Positions 31,322 to 46,715 of a DNA stretch of 64,000 nt are shown piece by piece. The stretch's first letter is position 1; each line of letters starts with the position of its first letter. Both the position numbers and the translations under genes were made by a program. This DNA is from Azotobacter chroococcum (GTDB lineage: Bacteria; Pseudomonadota; Gammaproteobacteria; Pseudomonadales; Pseudomonadaceae), in the NCBI RefSeq assembly GCF_004339665.1, contig NZ_SMMU01000009.1, positions 62,001-126,000 of the forward strand, given 5' to 3'. Below the pieces are notes generated by a model. It saw only the letters and a program-made list of their open reading frames with translations, had not been told where the DNA came from and did not search any database.

Positions 31322-31816
31322 CTACTCCTCCAGAAGACTGCGCAGCATCCAGGCGGTCTTCTCGTGCACTTCCAGGCGCTGGGTGAGCAGATCGGCCGTC
31401 GGCTGGTCGCCGGCCTTGTCGACCACCGGGAACAGCTTGCGGGCGGTGCGGGCGGTCGCCTCCTGGGCGGAAACCAGATAACGGACCATCTCGCCGGCCT
31501 TTGGCACCCCCTTCACCTCCTCGATGGAGGCCAGCTTGGCGAACTCCCTGTAGGTGCCCGGCGCCGGAAAGCCCAGCGCGCGGATGCGTTCGGCGATCAG
31601 GTCGAGGGCGGCCCATTGCTCGGTGTACTGGGTCATGAACATCTGGTGCAGCGTGTTGAACTGCGGGCCGGTCACGTTCCAGTGGAAGTTGTGGGTCATC
31701 AGATAGAGCGTGTAGCTGTCGGCGAGCAGTGCCGACAGGCCATCGGCGATCTTTTCGCGATCCGCGGCATCGATGCCTATATCGATGGCGGGAGTCCTGC
31801 CTTTGCGGTTTTCCAT
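31322..31816 (-). CDS. dps: Dps-family iron-storage/DNA-protection ferritin
   Basis: The 164-residue protein has the Dps signature [19 protein letters not shown] followed by [26 protein letters not shown], which hold the intersubunit ferroxidase ligands. Dodecameric Dps oxidises ferrous iron with hydrogen peroxide, stores it and may bind DNA. The start at 31816 is supported by GAGGAGGG about 5 bases upstream. It lies 37 bases downstream of katA on the same strand, so peroxide removal and iron storage are probably cotranscribed. Confidence 0.94.
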
Positions 31817-31853
31817 GGGAACCCTCCTCTCGAAGAAACGATGTTTCCGACGC

Positions 31854-33293
31854 TCAGTCGAGCCCCAGCGCCCTGGCCACCCCCGCGCCGTAGGCCGGGT
31901 CGGCCTTGCCGCAGTTGGCGACATGGCGCCGCTTGACCTCCTCCGGCGCCTCGCCCAGGGCGCGGGCGGTGTTCTCGAACAGCACCTGTTGCTGCTGGGG
32001 CGTCATCAGGCGGAACAGCGCGCCGGGCTGCGAGTAGTAGTCGTCGTCATCCTCGCGGAAGTTCCAGTGATCCGCCGAACCCGCCAGCGCCAGCGGCGGC
32101 TCGCGGAAGTCGGGCTGTTCCCGCCATTCGCCATAGCCGTTCGGCTCGTAGCCGAGGGTGCTGCCGAAATTGCCCTCGACGCGCATGGCGCCGTCGCGGT
32201 GATAGCTGTGCACCGGGCAGCGCGGGGCGTTGACCGGGATATGGGCATGATTGACGCCGAGCCGGTAGCGCTGGGCGTCGCCATAGGAGAACAGCCGGCC
32301 CTGCAGCATCTTGTCCGGCGAAAAGCCGATCCCCGGCACGACGTTGGCCGGATTGAAGGCGGCCTGCTCCACTTCGGCGAAGTAGTTGTCCGGGTTGCGG
32401 TTCAGCTCGAGGATGCCGACCTCCTGCAGCGGGTAGTCCTTGTGCGGCCAGATCTTGGTCAGGTCGAAGGGGTGGTACGGCACCCTGGCGGCGTCCTGCT
32501 CCGGCATGATCTGCACGCAGAACTGCCATTTCGGGAAATCGCCGCCCTCGATGGCCTCGTAGAGGTCGCGCTGGTGGGTTTCCCGGCATTTGCCGATGGC
32601 CGCCTCCGCCTCGGCGTCGCTCAGGTTGCGGATGCCCTGCATGCACTTGAGGTGGAACTTCACCCAGTAGCGCTCGTTTTGGGCGTTGATGAAGCTGTAG
32701 GTATGGCTGCCGAAACCGTGCATGTGCCGGTAGCTCGCCGGGATGCCGCGGTCGCTCATGACGATGGTGATCTGGTGCAGCGCCTCGGGCAGCAGGGTCC
32801 AGAAATCCCAGTTGTTTTTCGCGCTGCGCAGGTTGGTGCGCGGGTCGCGCTTCACCGCGTGGTTGAGGTCGGGAAACTTGAGCGGATCGCGCAGGAAGAA
32901 CACCGGGGTGTTGTTGCCGACCAGGTCCCAGTTGCCCTCCTCGGTGTAGAGCTTGACCGCGAAGCCGCGGATGTCGCGCTCGGCGTCGGCGGCGCCGCGT
33001 TCGCCGGCCACGGTGGAGAAGCGCACGAACAGCTCGGTCTGCTTGCCCACTGCGGAAAACAGCTTCGCCCGGGTGTAGCGGCTGATGTCCTGGGTGACGG
33101 TGAAGGTGCCATAGGCGCCCGAGCCCTTGGCGTGCATGCGCCGCTCGGGAATCACCTCGCGGTCGAAGTGGGCCAGCTTCTCCAGGAACCAGACGTCCTG
33201 CAGCAGTTGCGGACCGCGCGGGCCGGCGGTCATGACGTTCTGGTTGTCGACGACGGGGCAGCCCGCCGCCGTGGTGAGCTTTTTCTCGGTCAT
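31854..33293 (-). CDS. katA: Monofunctional haem catalase
   Basis: The 479-residue small-subunit catalase has the active-site His54 in [12 protein letters not shown], the [13 protein letters not shown] and [18 protein letters not shown] regions, and the haem-tyrosine region [14 protein letters not shown]. It decomposes hydrogen peroxide. I chose the ATG at 33293 over one eight codons upstream because MTEKK is the usual beginning of the family and GGAAGG precedes it. It is cotranscribed with dps downstream, and a 147-base gap upstream probably contains its own promoter. Confidence 0.95.
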
Positions 33294-33440
33294 GCCGGTT
33301 TTCCTTCCTTTTCCCATCCAAGAAAAACGAGGTGTCTGGGGCCGCCTCGATTCCCGGACCAGGTGGAAGGCCTTCCCCTTCGGAAAAAGAGTAGTCCTGA
33401 AACATGAAAGCGTCGCCGGGAGCGACGGGAAGGCCCCGCC

Positions 33441-34556
33441 CTACCCCAGCCATCCGGGCCGCAGCAGCATGACCCCGCCCAGGGCCAGCATGACCGCCCC
33501 GCTCAGCAGCTTGAGCCAGCGCCCCGCCCGCTCCGACAGCCGGCGCCCGCAGAGGGCGAGCAGCGCGCCGGCCACCATCAGCAGGTCGTCCGCCAGGTAG
33601 CCCAGGACATACAGGCCCAGGTAGGCGTAGTGGAGCGCCGGAGACAGTCCCTGGCGGGCGAGGATCGCCGTGTAGAGCGCCGGGAAGCCGGCGGTGCAGA
33701 GCAGCTCGACGACGTTCACCAGCACCGCCAGCACGGCGACGCCGGCGAGCGCGGGCAGCAGCCGCCCGGCCTGCAGGATGGCGCGCAGGCGGGCATAGAG
33801 CCCAGGCTTGGCCGCGGCCGGTATCGACAGCGCGAAATCGCCGCCCGGACGCAGGCCGTCCCGGAGGTTGAGCGCGCCGATCAGCAGGGCCAGGCCGCCG
33901 AGCAGCCGGGTCAGCGTCGTGGAGACGCCGAGCAGCAGGAACAGGTTGAGCCAGGCGGCCAGGAAGGCGTAATAGACCGCGCCGCCGGTCAGCACGAAGG
34001 TACCGGCGACCAGCGCCATGCGCCGGCGGTCGTGCAGGCGCACCAGGAGCGAGAGAAGAAACAGCAGCAGCCACATCGCGCAGGGGTTGAAGCCATCGAG
34101 CAGGCCGAGGGCCAGGGTAAACAGCGGCAGCCCCAGGCGCTCCACGCTGAGGCAGCCGAACAGCCCGGTCTCGAGCGCATCGCTGGGCGCCGCCTGGCGG
34201 TCGAGCAGCGCGACCAGCTCGGCACCGCTGCGTCCGGCGCTGTCGAAGCCAACCAGTACCCGCTCGTCGATCACGAAGGTCGGCACGCTCGGCGGCCAGA
34301 CGCCGGCCTGGCGGGAAATCCGCAGCAGATCCTCCCGCGCCGCGGCATCCCGGTCTACCGGGCGCAGGACGATGCGCAGCTCGGGGCGCCCGGCGGCCAG
34401 CTCGGCGAGAAAGGCCTTGGCCGCGCTGCAATGCGGGCAGCCGTCGCGCACGAACACCTCGATGGTCTGCGTCCCGCCCTGTTCCGGCGGCACGGCGAGC
34501 GCCGAAGGCAGGCCTGCGAGCAGGAACAGCAGCACCAGCCTGCATGGCAGCGACAT
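33441..34556 (-). CDS. Glutaredoxin-like domain fused to a CcdA/DsbD-like membrane domain
   Basis: The 371-residue product has a signal/anchor sequence and a periplasmic glutaredoxin-like domain with CPHC (residues 40-43) and the cis-proline region SVPTF. About six membrane helices follow (from about residue 140), beginning with the LLDGFNPCAMW cysteine motif typical of CcdA/DsbD transmembrane reductases. A second membrane cysteine (LLCTAGFPALY) completes the pair. It could pass electrons across the membrane to periplasmic thiols. It lies 12 bases after the preceding gene in the Feo-linked run, suggesting a role in keeping iron reduced or in maturing metal proteins; that is inference. Confidence 0.8.
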   Translation of the reverse strand: MSLPCRLVLLFLLAGLPSALAVPPEQGGTQTIEVFVRDGCPHCSAAKAFLAELAAGRPELRIVLRPVDRDAAAREDLLRISRQAGVWPPSVPTFVIDERVLVGFDSAGRSGAELVALLDRQAAPSDALETGLFGCLSVERLGLPLFTLALGLLDGFNPCAMWLLLFLLSLLVRLHDRRRMALVAGTFVLTGGAVYYAFLAAWLNLFLLLGVSTTLTRLLGGLALLIGALNLRDGLRPGGDFALSIPAAAKPGLYARLRAILQAGRLLPALAGVAVLAVLVNVVELLCTAGFPALYTAILARQGLSPALHYAYLGLYVLGYLADDLLMVAGALLALCGRRLSERAGRWLKLLSGAVMLALGGVMLLRPGWLG

Positions 34557-34568
34557 GCCGGGCCTCGC

Positions 34569-35129
34569 TCAAGGCCCTTCGAGCCGCCCGACGCAGCCGG
34601 CGGCGATGGCGATCAGTTCGCGGGCCAGCTCGCGGGCGCCCGGCCATTCATCCGACGCCGGCTCCGGCAGATAGATTTCCAGGCCCAGATAGAGAAAGGC
34701 CGGGTTGTGCCATACCTGCGGCGGGATGATGGTCCGCGCATGGAGGTCGGCGCCCTCGTCGCCAAGGGGCACCACGCGGACTTCCACGCCGGCCAGCTGC
34801 TCGGCGCCGGCCACGGCCGTGCGCAGACAGGCGCACAGTGCCGGGTCGGCGCAGATCAGGTCGGCGCCGAGCTGCGGGTCGGCGCCGCTGTGCAGATCGA
34901 CGAGCAGCCGGTGATGATTCAGCACATGAGGCAGCAGCTGCAGGTACAGCGCCCGGTGCAGGGTCTCGTACTGGAAACGCCGCGCGGCGGGCGGCGGCTG
35001 CCCGGAAAGCCCCTCGGGGATCTCCAGCACCGCCACCTGCGCCGGGTCCACGCCGCCGGCCACGGCCTGGCCGAAGGCCAGTTCCTCGCGGTGGATGCCG
35101 ATCACCAGCAGCGTGGGGGGGATATCCAT
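34569..35129 (-). CDS. Conserved protein of unknown function in the feo operon
   Basis: The 186-residue soluble protein begins TLLVIGIHREELAFG and contains LLVDLHSG, reminiscent of N-formylglutamate amidohydrolase or M14-like zinc hydrolases in which an early His-Glu and a DLHSG strand contribute to the active site. Similarity is slight and I do not assign an activity. GGAGG stands 6 bases before the ATG, and the gene starts 28 bases after feoC and ends 12 bases before the glutaredoxin-CcdA gene, so it is probably part of the operon. Confidence 0.6.
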   Translation of the reverse strand: MDIPPTLLVIGIHREELAFGQAVAGGVDPAQVAVLEIPEGLSGQPPPAARRFQYETLHRALYLQLLPHVLNHHRLLVDLHSGADPQLGADLICADPALCACLRTAVAGAEQLAGVEVRVVPLGDEGADLHARTIIPPQVWHNPAFLYLGLEIYLPEPASDEWPGARELARELIAIAAGCVGRLEGP

Positions 35130-35157: not shown

Positions 35158-35382
35158 TCAGTCGCCGATCCACTCGTAAAGCGCGAGCGTGGCCGGATCG
35201 CACTGGCAGCAGGCGGTGCCGCAGGTGGAGCCGGCTGGCAGGCGACGCACGCGGCCCTTGCGCGCCAGGCTGGCGAGCATGGCCTCGACCGCCTCCGGCG
35301 TGCTGCCGGTGGTCGTCGCCAGATCGCGCAGGCTGGCCCGACCATGCTGGCGAAGGTACTGGCCGATCTCCGCGAGGATCAT
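35158..35382 (-). CDS. feoC: FeoC-like [Fe-S] winged-helix regulator
   Basis: The 74-residue protein has an N-terminal winged helix (MILAEIGQYLRQHGRASLRDL) and a cysteine cluster (CGTACCQC, C-x4-C-x-C type with an extra Cys) near residues 57-64, which fits FeoC. FeoC binds FeoB and is thought to control its stability or activity through an oxygen-sensitive cluster. It starts 10 bases after the feoB stop. Confidence 0.85.
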   Translation of the reverse strand: MILAEIGQYLRQHGRASLRDLATTTGSTPEAVEAMLASLARKGRVRRLPAGSTCGTACCQCDPATLALYEWIGD

Positions 35383-35392
35383 GGCTTCTCCC

Positions 35393-37735
35393 TCAGGCCC
35401 GCTGGGCAACGGCCGCCGCAGCGGCTTCGCGCCCGGCGAAACGGCGCATGGCATACAGCGCCAGGCCGAAGCCGGTCAGCAACGCACCGATCCAGGCCAG
35501 CGAGGACAGCGGGTGCCGCGTCAAGGTCGCCGCCTGATAGAACAGGGTCGACACGCCATAGGCCAGCCCGGTGGTCCAGAGCGCCACGAACAGCGTCCAG
35601 TGCGGGCCGGACTCCTGGTAGACCGTCGCGGTTGCCGAGGTGCAGGGCATGTAGAGCAGGATGAACAGCAGGTAGGCGAAGGCGCCGGCACGCCCGTCGA
35701 AGCGGCTCGCCATGGCGCCGAAGATGCTGCTGGTCCGGGCCTGATCCGCCTCCGGCAGGCTCTGGCTCTGCGCCTCGATGCCGGCGACATCCCGGCGCCA
35801 GGAAGTGCTGCCCGGCAGCAGCTTGAGCCAGCCGTCGAACAGCGCGGCGAGGTTGGCGGGGATGGTCGCGAAGGCGGCGGCGATGCCGGCGCCCAGGGCG
35901 AGGGGTGACCTCTCGCCGGCATCCTGCGAGCCTGCCGCCAGGGACGCATAGGCGGCGTTCAGGGTGCCCACTATCGCCTCCTTGGCCAGCACGCCGGTGA
36001 AGATGCCGACCACCGCCGGCCAGTTGTCCTCGTCCAGCCCCAGCGGCGCGAAGGCCGGTGCGACGCCGCGGCCCACGGCGGCCAGCACCGAGCGGTCGCT
36101 GTTCTCATTGCTGTAACTGCCGTCGGTGCCCACTGCATTGAGCACGTTCACCACCAGCACCATGGGCACGATCACCCGCCCGGCGCGGAAGATGAAGCGT
36201 TTCAGGCGCTCCCAGGCATGGATCAGCACACCCCGCACGGTCGGCACATGGTAGGGCGGCAACTCCATGATGAAGGGCGTGGCCTCGCCCTGCAGCAGGG
36301 TGTTCTTCAACACCAGCCCGGTCAGCACCGCCACCGCAATGCCGATCAGGTACAGGCCGAACACCACGTTCTGTGCACCCTCGGGGAAGAAGGCCGCGGC
36401 CAGCAGCACATAGACCGGCAGGCGGGCACCGCAGGACATGAAGTGCGCCATGGCGATGGTCATCAGGCGGTCGCGGCGGTGTTCCAGGGTGCGGGTCGCC
36501 ATGATCGCCGGCACCGTGCAGCCGAAGCCGACCAAAAGCGGCACGAAGGACTTGCCCGGCAGGCCGATCCAACGCATGAAGCGGTCCATCACGAAGGCGG
36601 CCCGGGCCATATAGCCGGAATCCTCCAGCAGCGACAGGGACAGGAACAGAAAGCCGATTATCGGAATGAAGGAGGCCACCACCCGCAGGCCGCCGCCGAC
36701 GCCCTGCGCCAGCAGCAGCTCCAGCCAACCCGGTGCGCCGAGACTGGCCAGCAGCGCACCCAGACCGTCGACCAGCAGCACCCCGACGAGCTGCTCGAAG
36801 AAATCGATGAAGGCGCCGCCGAGGTTGATGGTGAGCATGAACATCAGATACATCATCGCCAGGAAGATCGGGATGCCGAGGGCGCGGTTGAGCACCACGC
36901 GGTCTATGCGCTCGGTGAGGTCGCGCCCGACCCGGCCGCCGATGCCGACCACCTCGCCGGCCAGGCGGTTGGCCAGCCCGTAGCGGGCATCGGCCACCTG
37001 GATGTCGAGGTCCTCGCCCAGCTTCGCGGCGAGCGCCTGCGCCTGCCCGCTCAGCGCACTGCCGGCGGTCTGCCGGGCAAGATCGTCGCCCTCCAGCAGG
37101 CGCACCGCCAGCCAGCGCGCCGAGGTGCCGGCATGGGCGGCGGTCGCCGCCAGCTGCGGTGCCAGGGCAGCGATCGCCTCCTCCAGCGCCGCCTCGTAGG
37201 CGACCTCGGCGGTCGCGCCACGGCGTTCGGCGACGGCCTCGGCGATGGCCACCTTGAGCGTTTCGATGCCCTCGCCCTCGGAGGCGACCACCGGCACCAC
37301 CGGGCAGCCCAGGCGCTCGGCCAGCGCCCTGGCGTCCAGCGTCATGCCCCGGGCCTCGGCCACGTCGACCATGTTGAGCACTACCAGCAGCGGCACGCGC
37401 ATCTCGACGAGCTGGCTGGTCAGATAGAGGTTACGCTCGAGATTGGCGGCATCGACGATGTTGATCACCAGATCGGCCTCGCTGCCGTGGACATAATCAC
37501 GGGCGAGCTTCTCGTCGAGGGAGACCTCCTGATCGGTCACATCCAGCGAATAGGTGCCCGGCAGGTCCACGACCTCGAAGCGCAGCCCGCGAAAAGCGTA
37601 CTCGCCGCTCTTGCGCTCGACGGTCACCCCCGGCCAGTTGCCGACCCGCTGGTGCGAGCCGGTCAGGGCATTGAACAGCGTGGTCTTGCCGCAGTTGGGA
37701 TTGCCGACCAGGGCGATCCGGTAAAGGTCCTTCAT
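35393..37735 (-). CDS. feoB: Ferrous iron transporter FeoB
   Basis: The 780-residue protein has an N-terminal G domain (G1 GNPNCGKTT at 12-20; PGVTVE switch; DLPGTYS; LNMVDVAE), a helical GDI domain, and a C-terminal membrane domain with two Gate regions (FVPLLVGFGCTVPAIMATRTLE and a later copy). It imports Fe2+ across the inner membrane. The start overlaps the feoA stop by 4 bases (ATGA). Its operon continues upstream into the P1B-6 ATPase set. Confidence 0.97.
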   Translation of the reverse strand: MKDLYRIALVGNPNCGKTTLFNALTGSHQRVGNWPGVTVERKSGEYAFRGLRFEVVDLPGTYSLDVTDQEVSLDEKLARDYVHGSEADLVINIVDAANLERNLYLTSQLVEMRVPLLVVLNMVDVAEARGMTLDARALAERLGCPVVPVVASEGEGIETLKVAIAEAVAERRGATAEVAYEAALEEAIAALAPQLAATAAHAGTSARWLAVRLLEGDDLARQTAGSALSGQAQALAAKLGEDLDIQVADARYGLANRLAGEVVGIGGRVGRDLTERIDRVVLNRALGIPIFLAMMYLMFMLTINLGGAFIDFFEQLVGVLLVDGLGALLASLGAPGWLELLLAQGVGGGLRVVASFIPIIGFLFLSLSLLEDSGYMARAAFVMDRFMRWIGLPGKSFVPLLVGFGCTVPAIMATRTLEHRRDRLMTIAMAHFMSCGARLPVYVLLAAAFFPEGAQNVVFGLYLIGIAVAVLTGLVLKNTLLQGEATPFIMELPPYHVPTVRGVLIHAWERLKRFIFRAGRVIVPMVLVVNVLNAVGTDGSYSNENSDRSVLAAVGRGVAPAFAPLGLDEDNWPAVVGIFTGVLAKEAIVGTLNAAYASLAAGSQDAGERSPLALGAGIAAAFATIPANLAALFDGWLKLLPGSTSWRRDVAGIEAQSQSLPEADQARTSSIFGAMASRFDGRAGAFAYLLFILLYMPCTSATATVYQESGPHWTLFVALWTTGLAYGVSTLFYQAATLTRHPLSSLAWIGALLTGFGLALYAMRRFAGREAAAAAVAQRA

Positions 37736-37959
37736 AGCCGCTCCACCGAGAGCGCGTCGGCCTCGTCACGGCGCAGCGACAGCGCGAAGCCGCGCACGCG
37801 GATCTCCACCGGATCGCCCATCGGCGCCACCCGGGTGATGCTGATTTCCGCACCCGGCGTGAGGCCCATCGACAGCAGCTTGCGGCGGTAGGCGCCGCCG
37901 CCCTCGGCGAAGCCGAGGACCCTGGCGCGCTCGCCAACGTGTAGATCCCTGAGCAGCAT
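37732..37959 (-). CDS. feoA: Ferrous iron transport accessory protein FeoA
   Basis: The 75-residue SH3-like protein contains LLSMGLTPGAEISITRVAPMGDPVEIRVRG, the core of FeoA (cited here as the region about residues 28-57). It has a strong AGGGAGG ribosome site. It lies only 27 bases after the P1B-6 ATPase stop and overlaps feoB, which places Feo uptake in the same transcription unit as the ferrosome-like genes. Confidence 0.95.
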   Translation of the reverse strand: MLLRDLHVGERARVLGFAEGGGAYRRKLLSMGLTPGAEISITRVAPMGDPVEIRVRGFALSLRRDEADALSVERL

Positions 37960-37986: not shown

Positions 37987-40137
37987 TCAGTGGCCCGTGG
38001 TGGAGCGTTTTGCGGTGCGGCGCTTCGTCCGGGTCCCGTTCTGGCGCGGCAGGCCGGCGCCGGCCAATGCGCGCAGGAGGATGGCGATGGTGCTGCCGTT
38101 GTGCAGCATCGAGGCGGCCACCGGGGTCAGCAGGCCAAAGGCCGCCGCGCCGAGGATGCTGGTGTTGAGGCCGGCGGTGAGCTTGAAGTTGCCGTCGATC
38201 AGCCGGCGGGTGGCCAGCGCCAGCGCCCGGGCATCGGCGACCCGGGAGAAGTCGTCCTCCAGCAGGGTGATGTCGGAGGCCAGGCGGGCGATGTCGGCGC
38301 CGTGGTGCATGGCGATGCCGACCAGGGCGCCGGTCAGGGCCGGCGCGTCGTTCACCCCGTCGCCGACGAAGGCGATGCGCGCGCCCTCGGCGGCGAGCTG
38401 CTGCAGCACCTCGGCCTTCTGCTCCGGCAGCAGGCCGGCGCGGAACTCGTCGAGGCCCAGCTCCGCGGACAGCGCGCCGGCGCGCTCCGGCTGGTCGCCG
38501 GTGAGCATCAGGATGCGCCGGACGCCGAGTTCGCGCAGCCGCGCCACGGTGTCGGCGGCGTTGTCGCGCACGCTCTCGGTCAGCGCCAGGACGCCGATCA
38601 GTTCGCCGCCGAAGCCGATGTAGAGCAGGATCTTGCCTTCGGCGTGCAGGCGCTCGATCACCTCGGCATGGGCCGCGGTGGAGATGCCCTCGTCGTCCTC
38701 GATGAAGTGCCGCGAACCGACCACGATGCGCCGGCCGTCGATCATGCTCGCCACGCCATGGGCGACGACGAACTGCACGGCCTGGTGGTCGAAGTGGTGC
38801 GGATGGTCGAGGCGGTGGGCCGCCGCCACCACCGCCTCGGCGACCGGGTGGACGTAGTGCTCCTCGACCGAGGCGGCCAGGTTGGTCAGGTCCTCGGAAG
38901 TGTAGGCGGCGCTGAAAGCGATCGAGTCGGTCACCTTGAGCATGCCGGTGGTCAGGGTGCCGGTCTTGTCGAAGACGAAGGTATCGGCGCGGGCCAGACG
39001 CTCCAGCGCCTTGGCGCTCTTGATCAGGATCGCCGACTGGCCGGCGCGGTACATCGCTGCCTTGAAGGCCACCGGGGTGGCCAGCTTCAAGGCGCAGGAA
39101 TAGTCGGCCTGCAGCACCGCCGCGACGCGCTGCCCGTCGGAGGTCAACAGCCAGGTGGCGCCGGCCAGGCCGAGCACCATCGGCACCAGGCGGTCGGCCA
39201 GGCGCGCCGCTTCGAGCTGGGTCTCGCTCTTCACCGACAGCGACTGTTCGACGAATTCGGCGATCCGCGCGGCGGCGGCCTGGCGGCCGACCCGCTCGGC
39301 GTAGATGCGCAGGCGGCCCTCCTCGACCAGAGTCGCCGACAGCACCCGGTCGCCGCGCCGGCGTACCACCGGCACGCCCTCGCCGGTCATGGTCGCCTCG
39401 TTGACCAGCGCCTCGCCGCCGAGCACGGTGCCATCCACCGGAATCACCGTGCCGGTGGCGGCGATCACGCTGTCGCCGACCTGCAGCTCGGCGGCGTCGA
39501 TGAGCGTCTCGACACCGTTGCGCTCGACCCACACCTCGCCGCCCGGCGGGTGCAGCAGATGCTTGAGCATTTCATCGGAACGGCGCTCGATGGACTCCTC
39601 GAGGTACTCGCCGAGGGCCAGCAGGAAGGAGGTGGTGTTGGCGGCGAGGTAATCGCTGCGGCTGATGGAGATACCCACGGCGAGGGCTTCCAGCACATGG
39701 GAGGTGATGCCCCGCTCGAGGAAGTCGTCGACCGCCTCGCCGAGCAGCGGCACCGCGGCGCCGAAGGCGACCGGTGCCTGCAGGGTCGGCTGCAGGCTGC
39801 GGGTGGCCAACAGGGTGGCGCCGCTCAGGGCCACCGCCCCCAGGCGCGCGGCCTCGCTGTGCCGGTGGTTGGCGGCCGGCAGCGGCAGGCCCGACGGCGA
39901 CAGGGCGAGGATGGCGGCGGCGAGGCTGTCGGAGTCGGTGACCTCCGGCTCGAACTCCACCACCAGCGAGCGCGCCGCCGGATTGGCGCGCGCCTGCAGC
40001 ACGCCCTTGAGGGTCCTGACCTCGTGCTCGATGCTGTGCGCATCGAGCGGTGTGCCCGCGCGGCAGCGGTAGCGGAAGCGCACCCGACCGGGTGTCCGGT
40101 GCAGCGACTGCAGCCGGACGAACCAGGTACCGTCCAT
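37987..40137 (-). CDS. P1B-6-type metal ATPase (FezB-like)
   Basis: The 716-residue P1B ATPase has an N-terminal HMA-like domain with PGRVRFRY (16-23) instead of CxxC. The actuator motif is TGEG (251-254). The M4 metal motif is SCALKLATP (347-355), which I associate with subgroup P1B-6, and DKTGT has Asp390. The HP motif is His430-Pro431, and GDGVNDAP is in the hinge. P1B-6 ATPases define ferrosome (fez) clusters and are thought to load iron into membrane compartments. It overlaps the Gly/Tyr-rich gene by one base and is followed 27 bases later by feoA. The C-terminal tail is strongly basic. Iron as substrate is inferred from context. Confidence 0.88.
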   Translation of the reverse strand: MDGTWFVRLQSLHRTPGRVRFRYRCRAGTPLDAHSIEHEVRTLKGVLQARANPAARSLVVEFEPEVTDSDSLAAAILALSPSGLPLPAANHRHSEAARLGAVALSGATLLATRSLQPTLQAPVAFGAAVPLLGEAVDDFLERGITSHVLEALAVGISISRSDYLAANTTSFLLALGEYLEESIERRSDEMLKHLLHPPGGEVWVERNGVETLIDAAELQVGDSVIAATGTVIPVDGTVLGGEALVNEATMTGEGVPVVRRRGDRVLSATLVEEGRLRIYAERVGRQAAAARIAEFVEQSLSVKSETQLEAARLADRLVPMVLGLAGATWLLTSDGQRVAAVLQADYSCALKLATPVAFKAAMYRAGQSAILIKSAKALERLARADTFVFDKTGTLTTGMLKVTDSIAFSAAYTSEDLTNLAASVEEHYVHPVAEAVVAAAHRLDHPHHFDHQAVQFVVAHGVASMIDGRRIVVGSRHFIEDDEGISTAAHAEVIERLHAEGKILLYIGFGGELIGVLALTESVRDNAADTVARLRELGVRRILMLTGDQPERAGALSAELGLDEFRAGLLPEQKAEVLQQLAAEGARIAFVGDGVNDAPALTGALVGIAMHHGADIARLASDITLLEDDFSRVADARALALATRRLIDGNFKLTAGLNTSILGAAAFGLLTPVAASMLHNGSTIAILLRALAGAGLPRQNGTRTKRRTAKRSTTGH

Positions 40138-40721
40138 CAGGTATCTCCGTGACGCTCGGTGGCGACCTCGGCCTTGATGTCGGCCATCTGCTCCTTCATC
40201 TCCTCGAAACCGCCGGCGATGCCGGCATAGAGCTTCATGCCGGCCTTGATCAGCTTGCCGCGCAGTTCCTCGTCGGCCAGCACCCAGGCCGCGGTGGCGC
40301 CGAGCACCGCACCGAGCAGGAACTGCTCGGCATTGCCCGAACGCAGGAAGGCCGGCATGCCCTGCAGCAGGCCGTCGTCGAACAGGCCGGCACCGGGAAA
40401 GCCACCCGGAGCGCCCCCGCCATACCCATAGCCATAGCCCTGGTGCTTCAGCGAATGATGGAAGGCGGCGCCCGCCGGGTCGTAACCGTAGCCGTAGCCG
40501 TGGTGGTGCGCATGCGGATGCGGCCCGCCGCCATAGCCTCCGTAGCCGCCATAGCCGCCCTGCGGGGGAATTCCGGCACCGTAGTCCGGCCCCATGCCGT
40601 ATTCCGGCCCGCCGCCATAGGGCGGAGCGGCGGCGTCCGGCGGCGGGTAGCCGTAGCCCATACCGCCAGGCCCAAGGCAGCCGCGCTGCATCTTCTTCTG
40701 CTGCTTATTCTTCTTGGCCAT
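40137..40721 (-). CDS. Gly/Tyr/His-rich protein with a single membrane helix
   Basis: In this 194-residue protein the first 110 or so residues are a low-complexity Gly-Tyr-Pro-His sequence (GYGYGYDP, GGYGGYGGYGGG, HPHAHHHGY). A membrane helix follows near 130-148 (LLGAVLGATAAWVLADEE), then an amphipathic tail. The basic N-terminus begins MAKKNKQQKK. The composition recalls phase-separating or membrane-scaffold proteins, and the helix-plus-tail half resembles small magnetosome or YtxH-like proteins. It overlaps both neighbours, so it belongs to the ferrosome-like operon. A structural or iron-binding role is a hypothesis. Confidence 0.75.
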   Translation of the reverse strand: MAKKNKQQKKMQRGCLGPGGMGYGYPPPDAAAPPYGGGPEYGMGPDYGAGIPPQGGYGGYGGYGGGPHPHAHHHGYGYGYDPAGAAFHHSLKHQGYGYGYGGGAPGGFPGAGLFDDGLLQGMPAFLRSGNAEQFLLGAVLGATAAWVLADEELRGKLIKAGMKLYAGIAGGFEEMKEQMADIKAEVATERHGDT

Positions 40722-41061
40722 GCCGTTTCTCCTTGTCGAGCCGAGTCGTATCGCGCAGCAGCTGCTCGATCAGCAGCACGCCACCGGCGCCGACCACGGT
40801 GGCCACCAGCGCGCTGGAGTAGTCGCCCTGATGGACGGCCGTCGCAGCACGGGACCCGGCGGCGAAGGCCGTGCCGCCCTGCAGGGCCTGGCGCAGCACC
40901 CGCCGGAGCTGGACCGGCGAGGTCGCACGGGGCTCGCCCTGGAATGCCGAGAGGCAGGCGGTGGCGACGAAAGCACGGGTGAACTCGCTGCTCAGGGGGA
41001 GCGGCGGATAAGGCGGAAAAACCGCCTGGCCATAGCCATAGCCGCGGAGCGGATATCTCAT
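40705..41061 (-). CDS. Small membrane protein of the ferrosome-like operon
   Basis: The 118-residue product has two Gly/Ala-rich hydrophobic segments (about 52-68 and 84-102), the second reading ALVATVVGAGGVLLIEQLL. The N-terminus is Tyr/Pro-rich (YGYGQAVFPPYPPLPL) and echoes the Gly/Tyr-rich neighbour. No known domain is recognised. Its ATG overlaps the upstream stop (ATGA) and its end overlaps the next gene by 17 bases, strong evidence of translational coupling. Confidence 0.7.
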   Translation of the reverse strand: MRYPLRGYGYGQAVFPPYPPLPLSSEFTRAFVATACLSAFQGEPRATSPVQLRRVLRQALQGGTAFAAGSRAATAVHQGDYSSALVATVVGAGGVLLIEQLLRDTTRLDKEKRHGQEE

Positions 41062-41372
41062 GACGCCCGTCCCTCCGTGCCTGCGGGCTTGCCGGGCGTC
41101 ACCGGCTCGGCGGCGGCCCGCGCCATGGCTGCCTCCGCCTCGCTGAGGTGCGGGCCTTCGCTGGCGGGGGCCCCGGGCTCGGCCGGTTTTTCGGCAAGGC
41201 GGGCGCGGGCCTTGGCCGAAGCGCTCTCGATCGCCTCCAGACTGGAGACGGTGGCGCTGCGCAGGCCGCCCTGGGCCTTTTCCAGGCCCTCCTGGGTCTT
41301 GTCGCTCCTTAACAGCTTGAGGATCACGGCTCCCGTCACTATGCCGACGGCAAAGGGAATGATATGGAACAT
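41058..41372 (-). CDS. Small single-helix membrane protein of the ferrosome-like operon
   Basis: The 104-residue product has one N-terminal membrane helix (IIPFAVGIVTGAVILKLL) followed by a charged, Ala/Glu-rich coiled tail. This resembles YtxH-like or phage-shock-style anchors but has no diagnostic motif. AAAGGAGG stands before the ATG, and the start lies one base from the stop of the ferritin-like gene. The function is unknown. Confidence 0.7.
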   Translation of the reverse strand: MFHIIPFAVGIVTGAVILKLLRSDKTQEGLEKAQGGLRSATVSSLEAIESASAKARARLAEKPAEPGAPASEGPHLSEAEAAMARAAAEPVTPGKPAGTEGRAS

Positions 41373-41373
41373 T

Positions 41374-42057
41374 TCAGTCCTCCTTTCGATTTCGACCTGG
41401 CCGGTTCTTCAACAGGTAGATCCCTGCTCCGCCTGCCACCAGGCCGGCCAGCATGGCGGGATGGCTGTGACGCAAGAGGGGGCTGAAAATACCGAGCGGG
41501 CCGGCATGGGCGAGCGCCCGCTCCATGAAGTCGGAGAACGGCCCGTGGCGCACGTAGGCCGCCTCCGGCGGTATGCCCCGGGCCGCGTGGTAGCGCTCCT
41601 GGGCCATGGCATCCGCCACCGCTTGGCGAAAGGCCGGCAGATGCCGCTCCCGCGAGGCCGCCTGCAGGTTCAGGAACACCCGGCGTGCCTCCGGCTCGCC
41701 GACCTCGCCGAGCAGGTAGTCGTACAGGCGGATATTGGCGATCTCGCCGGCGACGGCCCGCTCGCAGTTGACCAGCCAGCTGGGCGCGACCGACGTTTCC
41801 TGCGGAAAGGGATTCAGCGGACGGGGAATGCCGAAGCGCTGGCATAGGTTCGAGAGCGCGGCGATGTGCCGTTCCTCCGAACGCAGGATATTGGCGAAGG
41901 GCGGACGCGGGCCGAAGGCCTCGACGACGCCGGCATAGAAGGCGTGGGCGGCGTATTCGTCGTAGAGCGCGATGCGCACCGCCTGGTGCAGGATGGGAAA
42001 GGGAGCGGCGGGATCGATACTCTGACTGCGCAGAATCGGCTCGTCATAGTTTCTCAT
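41374..42057 (-). CDS. Membrane-anchored ferritin-like (DUF2202-type) protein
   Basis: The 227-residue protein has a four-helix ferritin-like core. Candidate di-iron ligands are Glu34 (DEYAAH), Glu61 with His64 (EERH), Glu99/Glu105 and Glu137 with His139 (RERH), a pattern typical of DUF2202. Unusually, a hydrophobic helix at about 201-216 (AMLAGLVAGGAGIYLL) followed by a basic tail predicts C-terminal tail anchoring. A ferritin-like domain facing one side of a membrane next to a P1B-6 ATPase fits an iron-storing compartment. The ATG at 42057 lies within the end of the upstream gene (14-base overlap). Confidence 0.82.
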   Translation of the reverse strand: MRNYDEPILRSQSIDPAAPFPILHQAVRIALYDEYAAHAFYAGVVEAFGPRPPFANILRSEERHIAALSNLCQRFGIPRPLNPFPQETSVAPSWLVNCERAVAGEIANIRLYDYLLGEVGEPEARRVFLNLQAASRERHLPAFRQAVADAMAQERYHAARGIPPEAAYVRHGPFSDFMERALAHAGPLGIFSPLLRHSHPAMLAGLVAGGAGIYLLKNRPGRNRKED

Positions 42058-42382
42058 GCATGATCTCCCGATAGATCTCACGCAGAATCTGCTCGAGGGT
42101 GGCTGCGGCAGGCGACTCGACCCCGGCCAGGAAGTCGCTCCAGGCCTCGGCCGGAATCACTTGCGGGTCGTATTCCACGGAGCACGAACGGGCCAGCACA
42201 TTGACCCGCACCGAATGGACGCCCGGCGTGCGATCGAGAATAGACTGGAATTGCCGGGCCTGCCGGCTGCGTCCGGCGAGCGACTCGTAGCCGGCGACCA
42301 GCTTGAGGCGGATGCGCCCGTGGATGTGGTGGGCGATGCGGATGTGCACGAGGTAGCCGCGCAGTTCGTCGAAGGCGGGCAT
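42044..42382 (-). CDS. HMA2-like protein, first gene of the ferrosome-like/feo operon
   Basis: The 112-residue soluble protein has an HMA-like fold with HGRIRLKL (21-28) at the usual metal-loop position and a VNVLARSCSVEYDP strand, but no CxxC. The start at 42382 follows GGAGGAGG at a good distance. It is the most upstream gene of the minus-strand run that continues through the ferritin-like protein, three small proteins, the P1B-6 ATPase and FeoABC. It shares the GRxR motif with the ATPase N-terminus and with the protein at 30854, so it may act as a partner domain for the ATPase. Confidence 0.72.
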   Translation of the reverse strand: MPAFDELRGYLVHIRIAHHIHGRIRLKLVAGYESLAGRSRQARQFQSILDRTPGVHSVRVNVLARSCSVEYDPQVIPAEAWSDFLAGVESPAAATLEQILREIYREIMHEKL

Positions 42383-42546
42383 CTGGACACCTCCTCCAAG
42401 GAAATTCGAATGGGCTGGCGGGGATGCACTCCCCCACCGTTCGCCGCCCGAGTACCGGGCGTGCATGCCGAGTCAATCCATGGAGCGGCCGGCCGACCTG
42501 TCCTGGCGCCGATCAAAAGCTATGGCAGCATTGTGCGAAGCTGTCA

Positions 42547-42567
42547 AAATGCGAGCAGATCGCATTT
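42547..42567. promoter_or_regulatory. Inverted repeat in the divergent iron promoter region
   Basis: Perfect 8-base arms AAATGCGA and TCGCATTT are separated by 5 bases, about 165 bases upstream of the ferrosome-like operon. The symmetry suggests an operator for a dimeric regulator, which cannot be named from sequence. Confidence 0.5.
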
Positions 42568-42715: not shown

Positions 42716-42736
42716 TAATGATATTGTTTATCATTA
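42716..42736. promoter_or_regulatory. Fur box upstream of the ECF sigma gene
   Basis: AATGATA, five bases, TATCATT form a perfect dyad inside an A+T-rich island and closely match the Fur consensus. It ends 21 bases before the fecI-type ATG, so iron-bound Fur should block transcription. It also lies in the shared region with the divergent ferrosome-like operon. Confidence 0.85.
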
Positions 42737-42757: not shown

Positions 42758-43282
42758 ATGACCGCCTCCCTGCCACTGCCCTCCGCGCTGCGCCTCCAGG
42801 TCCTCCATCGCCTGTTCGGCGAGCATCACGGCTGGCTGCTCGGGCGCTTGCGCGCCCGGCTCGGCTGCGCCCACGACGCCGCCGACATCGCCTCGGAAAC
42901 CTTCACCCAGGTCGTCGCCCTGGAGGACCCCGGCGCCATCCGCGAGCCGCGCGCCCTGCTGACCACCATCGCCAAACGCCTGGTCTATGCCAGCTGGCGC
43001 CGCCGCGACCTGGAGCGCGCCTATCTGGAGGCCCTGGCGCAGCAGCCGGAGGCCGTCCAGCCGTCTGCCGAGGAAACCGTCCTGGTCCTGGAGGCCCTGA
43101 CGGCCATCGACCAGCTGCTCGACGGACTTTCCCCGAAGGCCCGCGCGGCCTTTCTCTACAGCCAGCTGGAAGGCCTGACCTACGCCGAGATCGCCACGCG
43201 CCTGGGGGTGTCCGTCACCCGCGTGCACCAGTACGTGGTCAAGGGGCTGACCACCTGCTACCTGGCACTGGAGCCGGCATGA
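42758..43282 (+). CDS. FecI-type ECF sigma factor
   Basis: The 174-residue protein has sigma region 2 (HHGWLLGRLRARLGCAHDAADIASETF) and region 4 (LSPKARAAFLYSQLEGLTYAEIATRLGVSVTRVHQYV), as in FecI/FpvI iron-starvation sigma factors. It is repressed by the Fur box just upstream. It overlaps the FecR gene by 4 bases. It probably activates the TonB receptor gene downstream when the receptor signals ligand binding through FecR. Confidence 0.94.
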   Translation: MTASLPLPSALRLQVLHRLFGEHHGWLLGRLRARLGCAHDAADIASETFTQVVALEDPGAIREPRALLTTIAKRLVYASWRRRDLERAYLEALAQQPEAVQPSAEETVLVLEALTAIDQLLDGLSPKARAAFLYSQLEGLTYAEIATRLGVSVTRVHQYVVKGLTTCYLALEPA

Positions 43283-44232
43283 ATCCCGCCCGCCTGTCGC
43301 CCGAGGAAATCGCCGCCATCGAATGGCTGGCCCAGCAACGCTCCGGCCGGATGAGCGCTGCCGAGCGGCAGCGCTTCGAACGCTGGCTCGCCGAAAGCGA
43401 ACGGCATCGCGGCGCCTGGGAGCGCCTGCAGCGACGGCTGGACAGCGCCTTCGCCGGCGTCGCCGAACAGCCTGCCGACCTTGCCCGAAACACCCTGCTG
43501 AGCGCCGGAACCAGCCGGCGCCAGGCCCTGCGCGGGGCTCTCGTGCTGGCCGGTCTCGGGCTCGGCGGCCTCGGGCTGACGCGCCCCGGCATGCCGCTGG
43601 ACGGCCTGGTCGCCGACCTGAGCACCGCCACGGGCGAGCGCCGGCGCTTCGTCCTGACCGACGGCAGCAGCGTGCTGCTCAACGCGCAAAGCCGTGTCGA
43701 CGTCGATTTCGGCGGCGGGCGGCGGCGCCTGCAGCTGCGGCGCGGCGCCCTGCTCGCCGAGGTGACGGCCGATGCCCGGCGGCCATTCGTGGTCGAAACC
43801 CCCTTCGGTCACGTGCAGGCGCTGGGAACGCGCTTCAGCGTCGCGCTCGGCGAACGGGACGCCACGGTCTGGGTGCAGGCAGCGCAGGTCCGTCTGGAAA
43901 CCCGCTCCGGCAACAGCCTGGTACTGGCGACCGACGAAGGCGCCCGTTTCGACCGGGACGTCTGCCAGCGCCTGGAGGGGCAGCGCAAGAACGAGTTCGC
44001 CTGGCAGGACGGCTGGCTGGAACTCCACGACCGTCCTCTGGACGTGCTGATCGCCGCCCTGCGCCCCTATCACCCGGGTCACCTGCGCCTTTCCCCGGCC
44101 GCCGCCGCCCTGCGCATTTCGGGTCTGTTTCCGCTGGACGACAGCGAGCACGTGCTGGCTTCGCTCGAGGAAATCCTGCCCCTGCGCATCCAGCGCTACC
44201 TGGGCTGGTGGACGACCATCGAACACAGCTGA
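43279..44232 (+). CDS. FecR-type transmembrane anti-sigma regulator
   Basis: The 317-residue product has the cytoplasmic N-terminal helical domain (IEWLAQQRSGRMSAAERQRFERWL) with the conserved WL and RF pattern, one membrane helix (about 88-102), and a periplasmic FecR domain with LTDGSSVLLNAQSRVDV and the C-terminal STN-interacting part. It relays the signal from the STN domain of the receptor to the ECF sigma factor. The ATG overlaps the sigma factor stop. Confidence 0.93.
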   Translation: MNPARLSPEEIAAIEWLAQQRSGRMSAAERQRFERWLAESERHRGAWERLQRRLDSAFAGVAEQPADLARNTLLSAGTSRRQALRGALVLAGLGLGGLGLTRPGMPLDGLVADLSTATGERRRFVLTDGSSVLLNAQSRVDVDFGGGRRRLQLRRGALLAEVTADARRPFVVETPFGHVQALGTRFSVALGERDATVWVQAAQVRLETRSGNSLVLATDEGARFDRDVCQRLEGQRKNEFAWQDGWLELHDRPLDVLIAALRPYHPGHLRLSPAAAALRISGLFPLDDSEHVLASLEEILPLRIQRYLGWWTTIEHS

Positions 44233-44312
44233 TTTTTTTTCGCACGCCCCCTGAAAATTCCAGGGCCTCGTTGCACATGAACGGTATTCCTTGCCTGTTC
44301 AGCGGAGCCGTC

Positions 44313-46715
44313 ATGTCTCGCCGTTTGTCCTTTCCCCTGTCGCCGGTATCCCTGTCGTTGCTGCTGGCCTGCCTCGCCCCGCCGGTTCTGGCCGAGAGCC
44401 CAGCCGCCACGCAGCAGCGAACCCTGGCCTTCGACGTGCTGGCCGGCCCCCTGGAAAACAGCCTGACCGCCATCGCCCGACAGAGCGCGCGCGGCATTCT
44501 CTTCGATCCGGCGCTGGTGCGCGGGGAGCAGGCCGAGGCCCTGCACGGGGATTTCACCGTCGAGCAGGCCATCGAGCGGCTGCTGCAGGGGCGGAACCTG
44601 CGGTTGCGCGTCACGGAAAGCGGCGCCCTGAACATCGAGGCGCTGCCCGGCAGCGGCAGCGCCCTGGAACTCTCGTCCCTTCTGGTGAGCGACTCCTGGC
44701 AGGAGGACGCCCGGGGTCCGGCCTACGGCCTGGTGGCCAGCCGCAGCGCCACGGCGACCAAGACGGACACGGCCCTGCGCGAAACGCCCCAGGCCATCTC
44801 GGTGATCACCCGCGAGGAGATGCAGACCCGCCGGCACGACAGCCTCGCCGACACGCTGCAGTACACCTCCGGCGTGGTCACCCAGCCGAACGGCTACAGC
44901 CGCGTGGCGGACGACTATCGCCTGCGCGGCTTCGACATCGGTCCGCGCACCGGCGGCGTGCTGCGCGACGGTCTGAAGCTGCAGAGTTCCCAGTTCGAGG
45001 GCGGCCAGGAGCCTTACGGACTGGAGCGGGTCGAGGTGCTCAAGGGCGCCTCCTCGGTGCTCTACGGCCAGCTGTCTCCCGGCGGCCTGGTGAATACCGT
45101 GAGCAAACGTCCCACCGACGATCCGCTGCACGAAATCAACGTCGAATACGGCAACTACCAGCGCCGCCAGATCTCCACCGACCACGGCGGTCCGCTCGAC
45201 GAGTCGGGACGCTTCACCTACCGGCTGACCGCCCTCTGGCGCGACAGCGAAACGCAGTACACCTCGATCGACGACGACAGGCGTTTCTTCGCCCCGGCCC
45301 TCACCTGGCACATCGACGACGATACCCGCCTGACCCTGCTCGCCACCTATCAGGAAACCCGCACGACCCTGACCCCGGCGATGAACTACAACGTCACCAA
45401 ATACAGCGCGACGCCCGGCCGCAAGATCCCCTACGACCTGTTCGCCGGCGAGCCGAGCTTCGACGACTACTCGGGCGACATGGGCACCCTCGGCTACCTC
45501 TTCGAGCACCGGCTCGACGACGGCCTCGAACTGCGCCACGCCCTGCGCTATTTCCATTCCGAAAGCGACTACGACTACATCAGCCTGAACGGCAGCCGGA
45601 TCACCGGCGCGGATCGCTCCACGCTGACCCGCAGCTACAACTCGCGCGAGGACATCGCCACCGGCTGGGCCAGCGACAGCAGCCTGCAATGGTCGTTCGA
45701 CAGCGGCCGCTGGGAGCACACCCTGCTCGCCGGCCTCGACTACTACTACAAGACCTACGACAGCCATCGCTGGAGCGGCAATGCGCCCTCGCTGGATCTG
45801 GCCAACCCAACGTACGGCAACCTGCCCACGGTCAATACCGCCATCGACCGCGGCTCCGACCTGCACAGCCGGCAGGCAGGCTTCTACCTGCAGGAACAGG
45901 CCAAGTTCGCCGAACGCTGGGTCTTCGTGCTCGGCCTGCGCCAGGACTGGGCCAGCAGCCACACCCGCAACTACCGCGACCGGAGCCGCAGCACCAAGAG
46001 CGACCAGGAGCTGTCCGGCCGCATCGGCATGGTCTACCTCGCCGACAACGGCCTGGCGCCCTACATCAGCTACAGCCAGTCGTTCCTGCCCACCGACGGC
46101 GTCGACAGCGAAGGCCGCAGCTTCGAACCCACCGAGGGCGAACAGTATGAGATCGGCCTGCGCTACCAGCCGCCCGGCCGCGACCTGATGCTCAGCGCCG
46201 CCGTCTACCGGCTGACCCAGGAGAATGTGGTCAGCTCGATTCCCGGCTCCGACTTCGACGAGCAGACCGGCAAGGAGCGCAGCAAGGGCCTCGAACTGGA
46301 ACTCAAGGCCGGCCTGACGCCGCAGTTGAACCTGAGCGCCTCCTACGCCTATACCGATGCCCACATCATCGCCGACAACGATCCCGTGCTCGAAGGCTCG
46401 CGCATCGAGGGCATCCCCTATCACAGCGCGTCCCTGTGGCTGGACTATCGTCTGGCCAGGTTCGGCCTGCCGAACCTGAAGATCGGCGCCGGCGCCCGCT
46501 ACAACGGCACCACGCGCACCTCGGCGAGCGTCAGCGACCGCAACATTCCGGCCTATACCCTGGTCGATGCGCTGCTCAGCTACGACCTCGACGCCCATTG
46601 GCAGATGACCGCCAAGGTGCAGAACCTGACCAACAAGCGCTACCTGTACTGCGCCAACGCCTGCCGCTACGGCGACGAACGCACGGCCATCGGCACGCTC
46701 AGCTATCGCTGGTAG
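44313..46715 (+). CDS. TonB-dependent siderophore receptor with STN signalling domain
   Basis: The protein has about 800 residues from the ATG at 44313, which has GGAG upstream; an ATG at 44277 is possible. A signal peptide ends near LAE (residue 27). An STN domain follows (about 35-110: FDVLAGPLENSLTAIARQSARGILFDPALV), then a plug with RETPQAISVITREEMQ and VEVLKGASSVLYGQLSPGGLVN. The 22-strand barrel ends in a terminal W (LSYRW). The order ECF-FecR-STN receptor is the standard cell-surface signalling set for ferric siderophores such as ferrichrome- or hydroxamate-type ligands; the ligand is unknown. Confidence 0.94.
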   Translation: MSRRLSFPLSPVSLSLLLACLAPPVLAESPAATQQRTLAFDVLAGPLENSLTAIARQSARGILFDPALVRGEQAEALHGDFTVEQAIERLLQGRNLRLRVTESGALNIEALPGSGSALELSSLLVSDSWQEDARGPAYGLVASRSATATKTDTALRETPQAISVITREEMQTRRHDSLADTLQYTSGVVTQPNGYSRVADDYRLRGFDIGPRTGGVLRDGLKLQSSQFEGGQEPYGLERVEVLKGASSVLYGQLSPGGLVNTVSKRPTDDPLHEINVEYGNYQRRQISTDHGGPLDESGRFTYRLTALWRDSETQYTSIDDDRRFFAPALTWHIDDDTRLTLLATYQETRTTLTPAMNYNVTKYSATPGRKIPYDLFAGEPSFDDYSGDMGTLGYLFEHRLDDGLELRHALRYFHSESDYDYISLNGSRITGADRSTLTRSYNSREDIATGWASDSSLQWSFDSGRWEHTLLAGLDYYYKTYDSHRWSGNAPSLDLANPTYGNLPTVNTAIDRGSDLHSRQAGFYLQEQAKFAERWVFVLGLRQDWASSHTRNYRDRSRSTKSDQELSGRIGMVYLADNGLAPYISYSQSFLPTDGVDSEGRSFEPTEGEQYEIGLRYQPPGRDLMLSAAVYRLTQENVVSSIPGSDFDEQTGKERSKGLELELKAGLTPQLNLSASYAYTDAHIIADNDPVLEGSRIEGIPYHSASLWLDYRLARFGLPNLKIGAGARYNGTTRTSASVSDRNIPAYTLVDALLSYDLDAHWQMTAKVQNLTNKRYLYCANACRYGDERTAIGTLSYRW

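Follow-up and report, generated by a model that had tools for sequence, protein, structure and literature searches.

The question raised by this locus of Azotobacter chroococcum is whether genes for storing iron have been joined to genes for importing it. The window, by which we mean the whole stretch of 64,000 nucleotides that was analysed (contig NZ_SMMU01000009.1, positions 62,001 to 126,000), contains on its minus strand six codirectional genes, among them genes for a small HMA_2-domain protein, a ferritin-like protein and a P1B-type ATPase, which lead into the ferrous-iron uptake genes feoA-feoB-feoC (Table 1). We put the probability at roughly 0.6 that this is a ferrosome-type (fez-like) iron-storage cluster joined to a ferrous-iron importer, and on its sequence we think the best description is a variant ferrosome (fez) cluster, distinguished by a ferritin-like gene and by fusion to Feo. 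A preliminary description of this DNA had proposed such a cluster, with a P1B-6-like ATPase, HMA_2 proteins and small membrane proteins contiguous with feoABC, and the gene content bears this out.

The genes themselves, their order, conservation and homologies, and the predicted fold of the ferritin-like protein are directly established. All six open reading frames that the preliminary description had named were found on the minus strand, with ATG starts and a coding-type G+C content at third codon positions of 0.79-0.94. Their junctions measure -14, +1, -4, -17 and -1 bases, such that four of the pairs overlap as had been claimed for all, while one is separated by a 1-base gap. The 27 bases reported between the ATPase gene and feoA were measured again, and the spacing beyond is equally close (feoA/feoB -4, feoB/feoC 10); a consensus scan listed no minus-strand terminator-like site in the ATPase-feoA interval. 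FeoA, FeoB and FeoC domains follow in order, all over the Pfam gathering score. Among 148 genomes sampled from the family, with the ATPase called at E up to 1e-90, the ATPase was present in seven, namely every one of the four sampled from the window's genus and three from a second genus (g11), and because the six-gene order is kept in all seven, the window's own genome included, it is not a product of chance. These genome searches scored 2 to 7 first-look candidates per genome, which makes absences less sure than presences.

The P1B-type ATPase

The ATPase carries the Pfam domains E1-E2_ATPase and Hydrolase, both over the gathering score, and an N-terminal HMA_2-like domain without CxxC. Its fourth transmembrane helix (TM4) reads SCALKLATP, at the place given in the preliminary description, and its sixth (TM6) reads HNGST. 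P1B-1 and P1B-2 ATPases, which transport Cu and Zn/Cd, have CPC in TM4, and P1B-4 ATPases, associated with Co/Fe efflux, combine SPC in TM4 with HEGxT in TM6; the window ATPase has SCALK in place of CPC, and SCALK with HNGST in place of the P1B-4 pair. We take this type of ATPase to be the one labelled P1B-6. In a quick maximum-likelihood tree of 104 rows, with long outgroup branches, an unsure root and no P1B-4 sequence, the window ATPase joined those of its own genus, then those of g11, Azospirillum and Arcobacter (support 100). All of these sit in a 99-row group (support 99) that excludes two CPC-type pumps, of which one comes from the window's own genome, and two odd pumps. Left out of the tree were L033 (broken reading frame), L127 (same contig as the genome of L032), L131 (too short) and L041 and L042 (no ATPase). 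The motifs are nearly constant across the clade, with [YF][SA]CxxK in TM4 of 96 of the 99 rows, HN[GS]xT in TM6 of 92 of the 95 rows of at least 650 amino acids (HNGMT in the remaining three), and CxxC inside the first 100 residues of a single row.

L055 and L057 are two further P-type ATPases with unusual TM4 sequences (YGTGIRVAAP, YSCGVRLSTA) and HMA2x-type matches nearby, and they branch outside the clade. At L034 (7960-10045) the ATPase of genome G763 lies in two overlapping reading frames, reflecting either a sequencing error or a broken gene. L107, titled Synechococcaceae cyanobacterium, groups tightly with Competibacter in the tree, suggestive of a mis-binned contig.

Export of Cu, Zn, Cd or Co by an ATPase that stands beside feoABC by accident is in our judgement very improbable. 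The family models that match it are of the general heavy-metal or cadmium type (TIGR01525, 450 bits; TIGR01512, 336 bits against a cut-off of 313.5) and the solved chains nearest to it by sequence are copper pumps, but TM4 has neither CPC nor SPC, the HMA parts lack CxxC, the two CPC-type pumps fall outside its clade in a tree without a P1B-4 reference, and linkage to feoB recurs in separate lineages. For want of CPC and CxxC, identity as a copper or zinc pump was rejected. CxxC is likewise absent from the small HMA protein and the FezC-like protein of the window, unlike copper chaperones.

A more serious alternative, which we nevertheless consider rather unlikely, is that the ATPase is a plasma-membrane Fe(II) efflux pump that counters an excess of iron brought in by Feo, the small proteins acting as regulators and no vesicle being formed. 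Fe(II)-exporting P1B ATPases of the PfeT type are known, the HNGxT of TM6 resembles the HEGxT of P1B-4 pumps, and a Fur-box-like repeat and a neighbouring Dps gene would fit iron stress. However, TM4 has SCALK rather than SPC, the window includes a FezC-like partner, and the HMA-, S118- and YtxH-type partners are conserved here; P1B-4 pumps are not known to be accompanied by such proteins.

Partners of the ATPase

Contiguous with the ATPase gene are genes for an HMA_2 protein, a one-helix membrane protein (TM), S118 and a YtxH-type protein, that is, HMA-type and small membrane partners in one cluster, and the window matches our own profiles for HMA, ferritin-like, TM, S118, YtxH, ATPase, feoA, feoB and feoC. 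The small HMA_2 gene occupies the same place in seven genomes of the family, own included, and the 104-residue TM protein has homologues in the g11, Azospirillum and Arcobacter clusters. From the named genomes scanned, the best 80 of 562 confirmed relatives (from at least 597 pattern matches), ranked by likeness to locus L034, were retained, and profile models, each made from a few sequences, served to count partners up to 5 kb from the ATPase. In these 80 loci, YtxH-type genes accompany the ATPase in 77, EFWKG-type in 68, S118-type in 67 (many of the matches being weak), HMA2x in 60, HMA in 40 and ferritin-like genes in 3; the YtxH relatives match the C-terminal part of the Gly/Tyr-rich protein of the window. 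The preliminary description held that the accessory proteins differ from those of described clusters, which mostly did not stand, given the YtxH-, S118- and HMA-type genes near the ATPase in 77, 67 and 40-60 of the 80 loci. A wholly new accessory set is ruled out by this recurrence, and the ferritin-like gene is the unusual member.

Pfam matches to the ferritin-like protein are sub-threshold (DUF2202 E 0.003, COQ7 E 0.007), although AlphaFold2 predicts a four-helix bundle with a mean pLDDT (predicted local distance difference test) of 83, above 90 over residues 11-150, and a pTM (predicted template modelling score) of 0.72. MJ0754 is the best match both by structure (Foldseek E 3.4e-4, alone under 0.001) and by sequence (profile E 1.2e-6), followed by Rv2844 and bacterioferritins at E above 0.001, and 11 of 16 relatives match Pfam DUF2202 at E up to 0.01. 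The predicted diiron ligands, read by eye from the alignment, are E34, E61, H64, E105 and H139, of which H64, E105 and H139 are invariant in 16 aligned rows and E34 and E61 are present in the window protein. The model, the fold match and the alignment thus agree on a DUF2202/ferritin-like four-helix bundle with the ligand series E, ExxH, E, H. Of the "membrane-anchored ferritin-like" protein announced earlier, the four-helix bundle held up; the anchor is weak by hydropathy, no 19-residue window exceeding 1.4, and the C-terminal helices are modelled with low confidence. The protein occurs in 9 of the 148 genomes of the family, two of these cases (G025 and G056) being short, lone relatives without the ATPase. 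Two ferritin-like genes from the window's genus, at L036 (7378-8058) and L037 (8764-9435), have both lost E61, and the latter has lost E34 as well, as if the diiron site were decaying in these two congeners while the gene stays in the operon.

The preliminary description missed a FezC-like gene, which lies beyond the span that it had named and encodes an HMA_2 domain followed by two membrane helices. The tail of this protein matches DUF4405 at a sub-threshold E of 0.027 and our own FezC-like profile at 27 bits, and the protein shares 37% identity with the product of the first gene in the Azospirillum cluster. Ten aligned FezC-like proteins all have G98, H118, G122 and H132. The ferrosome protein FezC was shown to be a DUF4405-like haem protein with conserved histidines (PMC11334425), and the paired H118 and H132 of the window's FezC-like partner would fit a protein of this kind. 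Each of the four genomes of the genus that were searched, the window's own among them, has a FezC-like gene nearby; between it and feoC lie the unclassified downstream gene and Dps in G044, and in G033 these two together with the glutaredoxin fusion.

Table 1. Features of the locus, in window coordinates, with the evidence for each
Feature	Position	Strand	Evidence and remarks
Fur-box-like inverted repeat, TAATGATA-aacaa-TATCATTA	42716..42736	-	between operon and divergent sigma-factor-like gene
Possible promoter	42519..42567	-	AAATGCGA-tctgc-TCGCATTT (42567-42547) overlapping TTGACA (42547-42542), CATAGC at 17 bases
Six-gene operon	42382-37987	-	codirectional, followed by feoA-feoB-feoC
Small HMA_2-domain protein, 112 residues	42044..42382	-	HHIHGRIRLK motif; Pfam HMA_2 E 4.5e-8, 33.6 bits (cut-off 30)
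Ferritin-like (DUF2202-fold) four-helix protein, 227 residues	41374..42057	-	ATG at 42057; alignment, AlphaFold2, PDB match MJ0754
Membrane protein with one N-terminal helix, 104 residues	41058..41372	-	hydropathy 2.01 at residue 3
S118, C-terminal membrane helix, 118 residues	40705..41061	-	hydropathy 1.94 at residue 84
Gly/Tyr-rich protein, YtxH/DUF5132-like C-terminus, 194 residues	40137..40721	-	DUF5132 E 0.002, YtxH E 0.04, both sub-threshold
P1B-type ATPase, P1B-6-like, 716 residues	37987..40137	-	TIGR01525 450 bits; PF00122 and PF00702; tree; motif counts
feoA	37732..37959	-	Pfam FeoA E 2e-23
feoB	35393..37735	-	Pfam FeoB_N E 5e-65; NF007105 803 bits
feoC	35158..35382	-	Pfam FeoC E 5.6e-20
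Conserved protein, no known family	34569..35129	-	without Pfam match (E up to 0.1); retained in G033 and G044, in part in G017
Glutaredoxin-type domain with polytopic membrane part	33441..34556	-	Pfam Glutaredoxin E 5e-7
Catalase	31857-33317		downstream of unit
Dps (ferritin family), start codon uncertain	31322..31924	-	Pfam Ferritin E 7e-28; relatives near unit in G044 and G033
FezC-like protein, 142 residues, HMA_2 and two membrane helices	30854..31282	+	convergent to operon; HMA_2 E 2.3e-8

Linkage to feo, flanking genes and nitrogen fixation

In the family, feoABC follows the cluster in the window and in G033, G044 and G027. On the quick tree, 18 of the 74 rows with flanking DNA to score (25 of the 99 lack it) have feoB no more than 8 kb from the ATPase, implying at least 10 changes, and a ferritin-like gene lies within 6 kb in 12 of 78 rows (21 of the 99 unscored), implying at least 5. 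Codirectional runs from the ATPase into feoA-feoB-feoC, with one HMA gene between, were found in L058 (Parasulfuritortus) and in L059 and L065 (Thiothrix), feoB precedes the cluster in L061, L031 and L034, and so does a more distant FeoB type in L104, L107 and L114. In L095, L100 and L106 a ferritin-like gene stands between the YtxH and ATPase genes, in L106 at some 4-5 kb from the latter. The Feo fusion and the ferritin-like gene are variant features that recur in separate lineages, with neither being fixed. Chance adjacency was rejected as an account of the feo linkage, with feoB found in 10 of 53 full 20-kb loci (14 of 80 overall, a fraction that is not a population estimate, since the loci were chosen by likeness to the feo-linked L034) against 0.3-0.5 expected in the 53 if a 4-Mb genome with one or two feoB copies is assumed. 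The contiguity with feoABC in the window stands as first described, and the coupling recurs in other lineages; it is not obligatory, feo not being next to the clusters of G017, G010 and G051. At L037 (12852-13234), in G017, the ATPase gene is followed by an incomplete version of the unclassified downstream gene with no feoABC between the two, and this gap looks like a deletion inside the unit.

At E up to 1e-90 the ATPase matched 8 of 398 genomes in a phylum sample and 3 of 274 in a class sample, the own genome included in both, with one of the others in the class sample at 34% identity only; an Azospirillum query against the class of G428 matched 5 of 385 genomes, three of which, at 34-38%, look like other kinds of pump. 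Among plasmids, 12 records matched at E up to 1e-80 (8 Azospirillum, 2 Arcobacter, 1 Cereibacter and 1 Vibrio). The ATPase clade with HMA-, S118-type and YtxH-type neighbours spans Gammaproteobacteria, Alphaproteobacteria and Campylobacterota, with Shewanella included, and the cluster is also present in Shewanella, Vibrio and enteric relatives. Ten Enterobacterales loci (L110, L113, L115, L117, L119, L121, L122, L129, L135 and L136) share a five-gene ferrosome-type cluster with a divergent HMA_2-type gene, their hosts being Hafnia alvei, Shimwellia, Pluralibacter gergoviae, Pragia, a Serratia marcescens strain, two Budvicia, Limnobaculum, Brenneria and Leminorella.

Downstream of feoC in the window, the conserved unclassified gene starts after 28 bases, and the glutaredoxin fusion follows it 12 bases further on. 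The unclassified gene is probably on the same transcript as feoC, and its residues HREE and DLHSG are reminiscent of zinc carboxypeptidase-like hydrolases, a resemblance only. The glutaredoxin-membrane fusion is possibly the last gene of the unit. A terminator-like stem (33427-33411) lies past it, although with 5 such sites in the region against 4.3 expected from shuffles, terminator-like sites are no commoner than by chance and the end of the unit is uncertain. Both Dps and catalase are present downstream, as the preliminary description stated, but the position of catalase is not conserved: in the stretches read of G033 and G044, Dps lies near the unit with no catalase between, and in G017 catalase lies beyond the FezC-like gene, Dps not being found in the stretch read. 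These positions rule out catalase as a conserved part of the locus.

All four genomes of the genus share a conserved block, TTTTGACAGC...ATGCTGCCATAGC, upstream of the HMA gene, and the inverted repeat over the -35 element of the possible promoter is intact in two of the four and imperfect in two; a consensus scan of the region called no promoter-like site. The Fur-box-like repeat, which resembles the Fur consensus, is nearer to the divergent sigma-like gene than to the operon. The divergent region abutting the operon (42758-46715) appears, by eye only, to encode a FecI-type sigma factor and a TonB-dependent receptor. Fur control of ferrosome genes is reported for C. difficile (PMC12574912).

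The host is probably a nitrogen-fixing soil bacterium; its genome of 4.86 Mb, in 99 contigs, has two nifH-type genes over the cut-off. G044, of the same genus, has nifH-type genes at 136,768, 252,546 and 4,961,279. A further explanation is that the cluster is an iron-trafficking route that quickly feeds nitrogenase and other iron proteins and not a long-term store. All seven ATPase carriers of the family are among the 18 of 148 genomes that exceed the nifH cut-off, and none of the 130 others carries the ATPase, an overlap with a chance of 1.2e-7 if genomes were independent. The carriers belong to only two genera, however, and 11 of the 18 nifH-positive genomes are without the cluster, so that the association is confounded and serves as a lead, not as proof. 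Among the 130 is a g11 genome, G039 (78% complete), in which nifH fragments but no ATPase match were seen. Outside the family, to which the nifH comparison was confined, Shewanella, Vibrio and enteric relatives carry the cluster. A trafficking route in place of a store seems to us unlikely.

Proposed function and comparison with known clusters

The locus likely works like a ferrosome cluster; its metal specificity, the vesicles, the direction in which iron is pumped, cotranscription and any contribution to the iron supply of nitrogenase are inferences. FeoB, aided by FeoA and FeoC, would import Fe(II) to the cytosol; the small HMA, S118 and YtxH-type proteins would shape vesicle membranes that hold the ATPase, which would pump Fe(II) into the vesicle lumen, where iron would be stored as mineral. 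The ferritin-like protein, perhaps tethered through its C-terminal helix, may oxidise iron or pass it on at the membrane, and the FezC-like protein may carry electrons, thereby setting the redox state of the stored iron.

Several observations weigh against reading the locus as a ferrosome cluster fused to Feo. Known ferrosome makers are mostly anaerobes or facultative, and Azotobacter is aerobic. Kinship to FezB and FezC was judged only from motifs, cluster make-up and genus. The EFWKG-type profile has no match in the window, against 68 of the 80 named loci with one near the ATPase, and a search of four g11 genomes, three of which bear the cluster, did not reveal the FezC-like gene. feoABC is not beside the cluster in G017, and feoB is on another contig in G010 and G051. 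In the ferritin-like protein, G044 has Gly at position 61, and G017 has Gln34 and Lys61; because of these ligand losses, a ferroxidase role is possible in the window but is not conserved in the genus.

Going further, we can tentatively imagine that Azotobacter, an aerobic model diazotroph, builds ferrosomes that its own Feo importer fills directly and whose lining includes a tethered ferritin-like protein, and that they serve as an iron bank for iron-hungry nitrogenases, with uptake and storage joined in one transcriptional unit by a coupling that arose several times; we regard this picture as possible though doubtful. If it were true, ferrosomes would not be just a store of anaerobes. In the open-licence part of PubMed Central, no paper joining the ferrosome with Azotobacter was found, though one may be in print elsewhere; one paper there names ferrosomes along with feoB gene clusters, in its discussion and references, and two name them along with DUF2202 or ferritin-like proteins. 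A recent review of iron in Azotobacter vinelandii describes the understanding of how this bacterium acquires and uses iron as having large gaps (PMC10669500). A conserved ferrosome-type cluster joined to feo in a genetically tractable model diazotroph would make iron storage for N2 fixation directly testable, and iron uptake and storage-type genes on one stretch of DNA, with the unusual ferritin-like protein, suggest a built-in iron bank that would be worth seeking in this group of bacteria. Elsewhere among bacteria feo and fez-type genes have been joined repeatedly, which offers a simple hypothesis, namely that uptake is coupled to storage.

Ferrosome (fez) systems belong to Rhodopseudomonas palustris, Shewanella putrefaciens, Desulfovibrio magneticus and Clostridioides difficile. 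R. palustris CGA009 builds its ferrosomes from six genes, RPA2333-2338 (PMC12016538). By cluster type, the window appears to share with the fez clusters a P1B-6-like ATPase, HMA_2 small proteins and a set of small membrane proteins. It also has a FezC-like protein of two helices and paired histidines, whose gene lies apart and convergent, and it differs in having no EFWKG-type match and in adding a ferritin-like (DUF2202-fold) gene and a contiguous feoABC. In comparison with DUF2202 proteins such as MJ0754, the ferritin-like protein has the same four-helix bundle and adds a C-terminal extension with a possible membrane helix, and in comparison with Feo ferrous-iron uptake operons, feoA-feoB-feoC is complete but is here preceded at 27 bases by six fez-type genes.

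The closest clusters found outside the family are those on Azospirillum plasmids or chromids (L043, L044 and L048), whose ATPases are about 59-60% identical to that of the window and which have the same order of HMA, TM, S118, YtxH and ATPase genes; there the first gene is an HMA2-FezC fusion, and the 16 kb searched contained no ferritin-like gene and no feo match. On a plasmid of Arcobacter sp. DSM 115972 (L045), from another phylum and with an ATPase 45% identical, HMA, DUF2202 ferritin-like, TM, S118, YtxH and ATPase genes are arranged as in the window and are then followed by a FezC-like gene, with no feo match in the 9.7 kb searched. Two of the 80 named loci, L125 and L133, are from Shewanella, the genus of S. 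putrefaciens, which is reported to make ferrosomes, and they contain the same type of cluster as the window.

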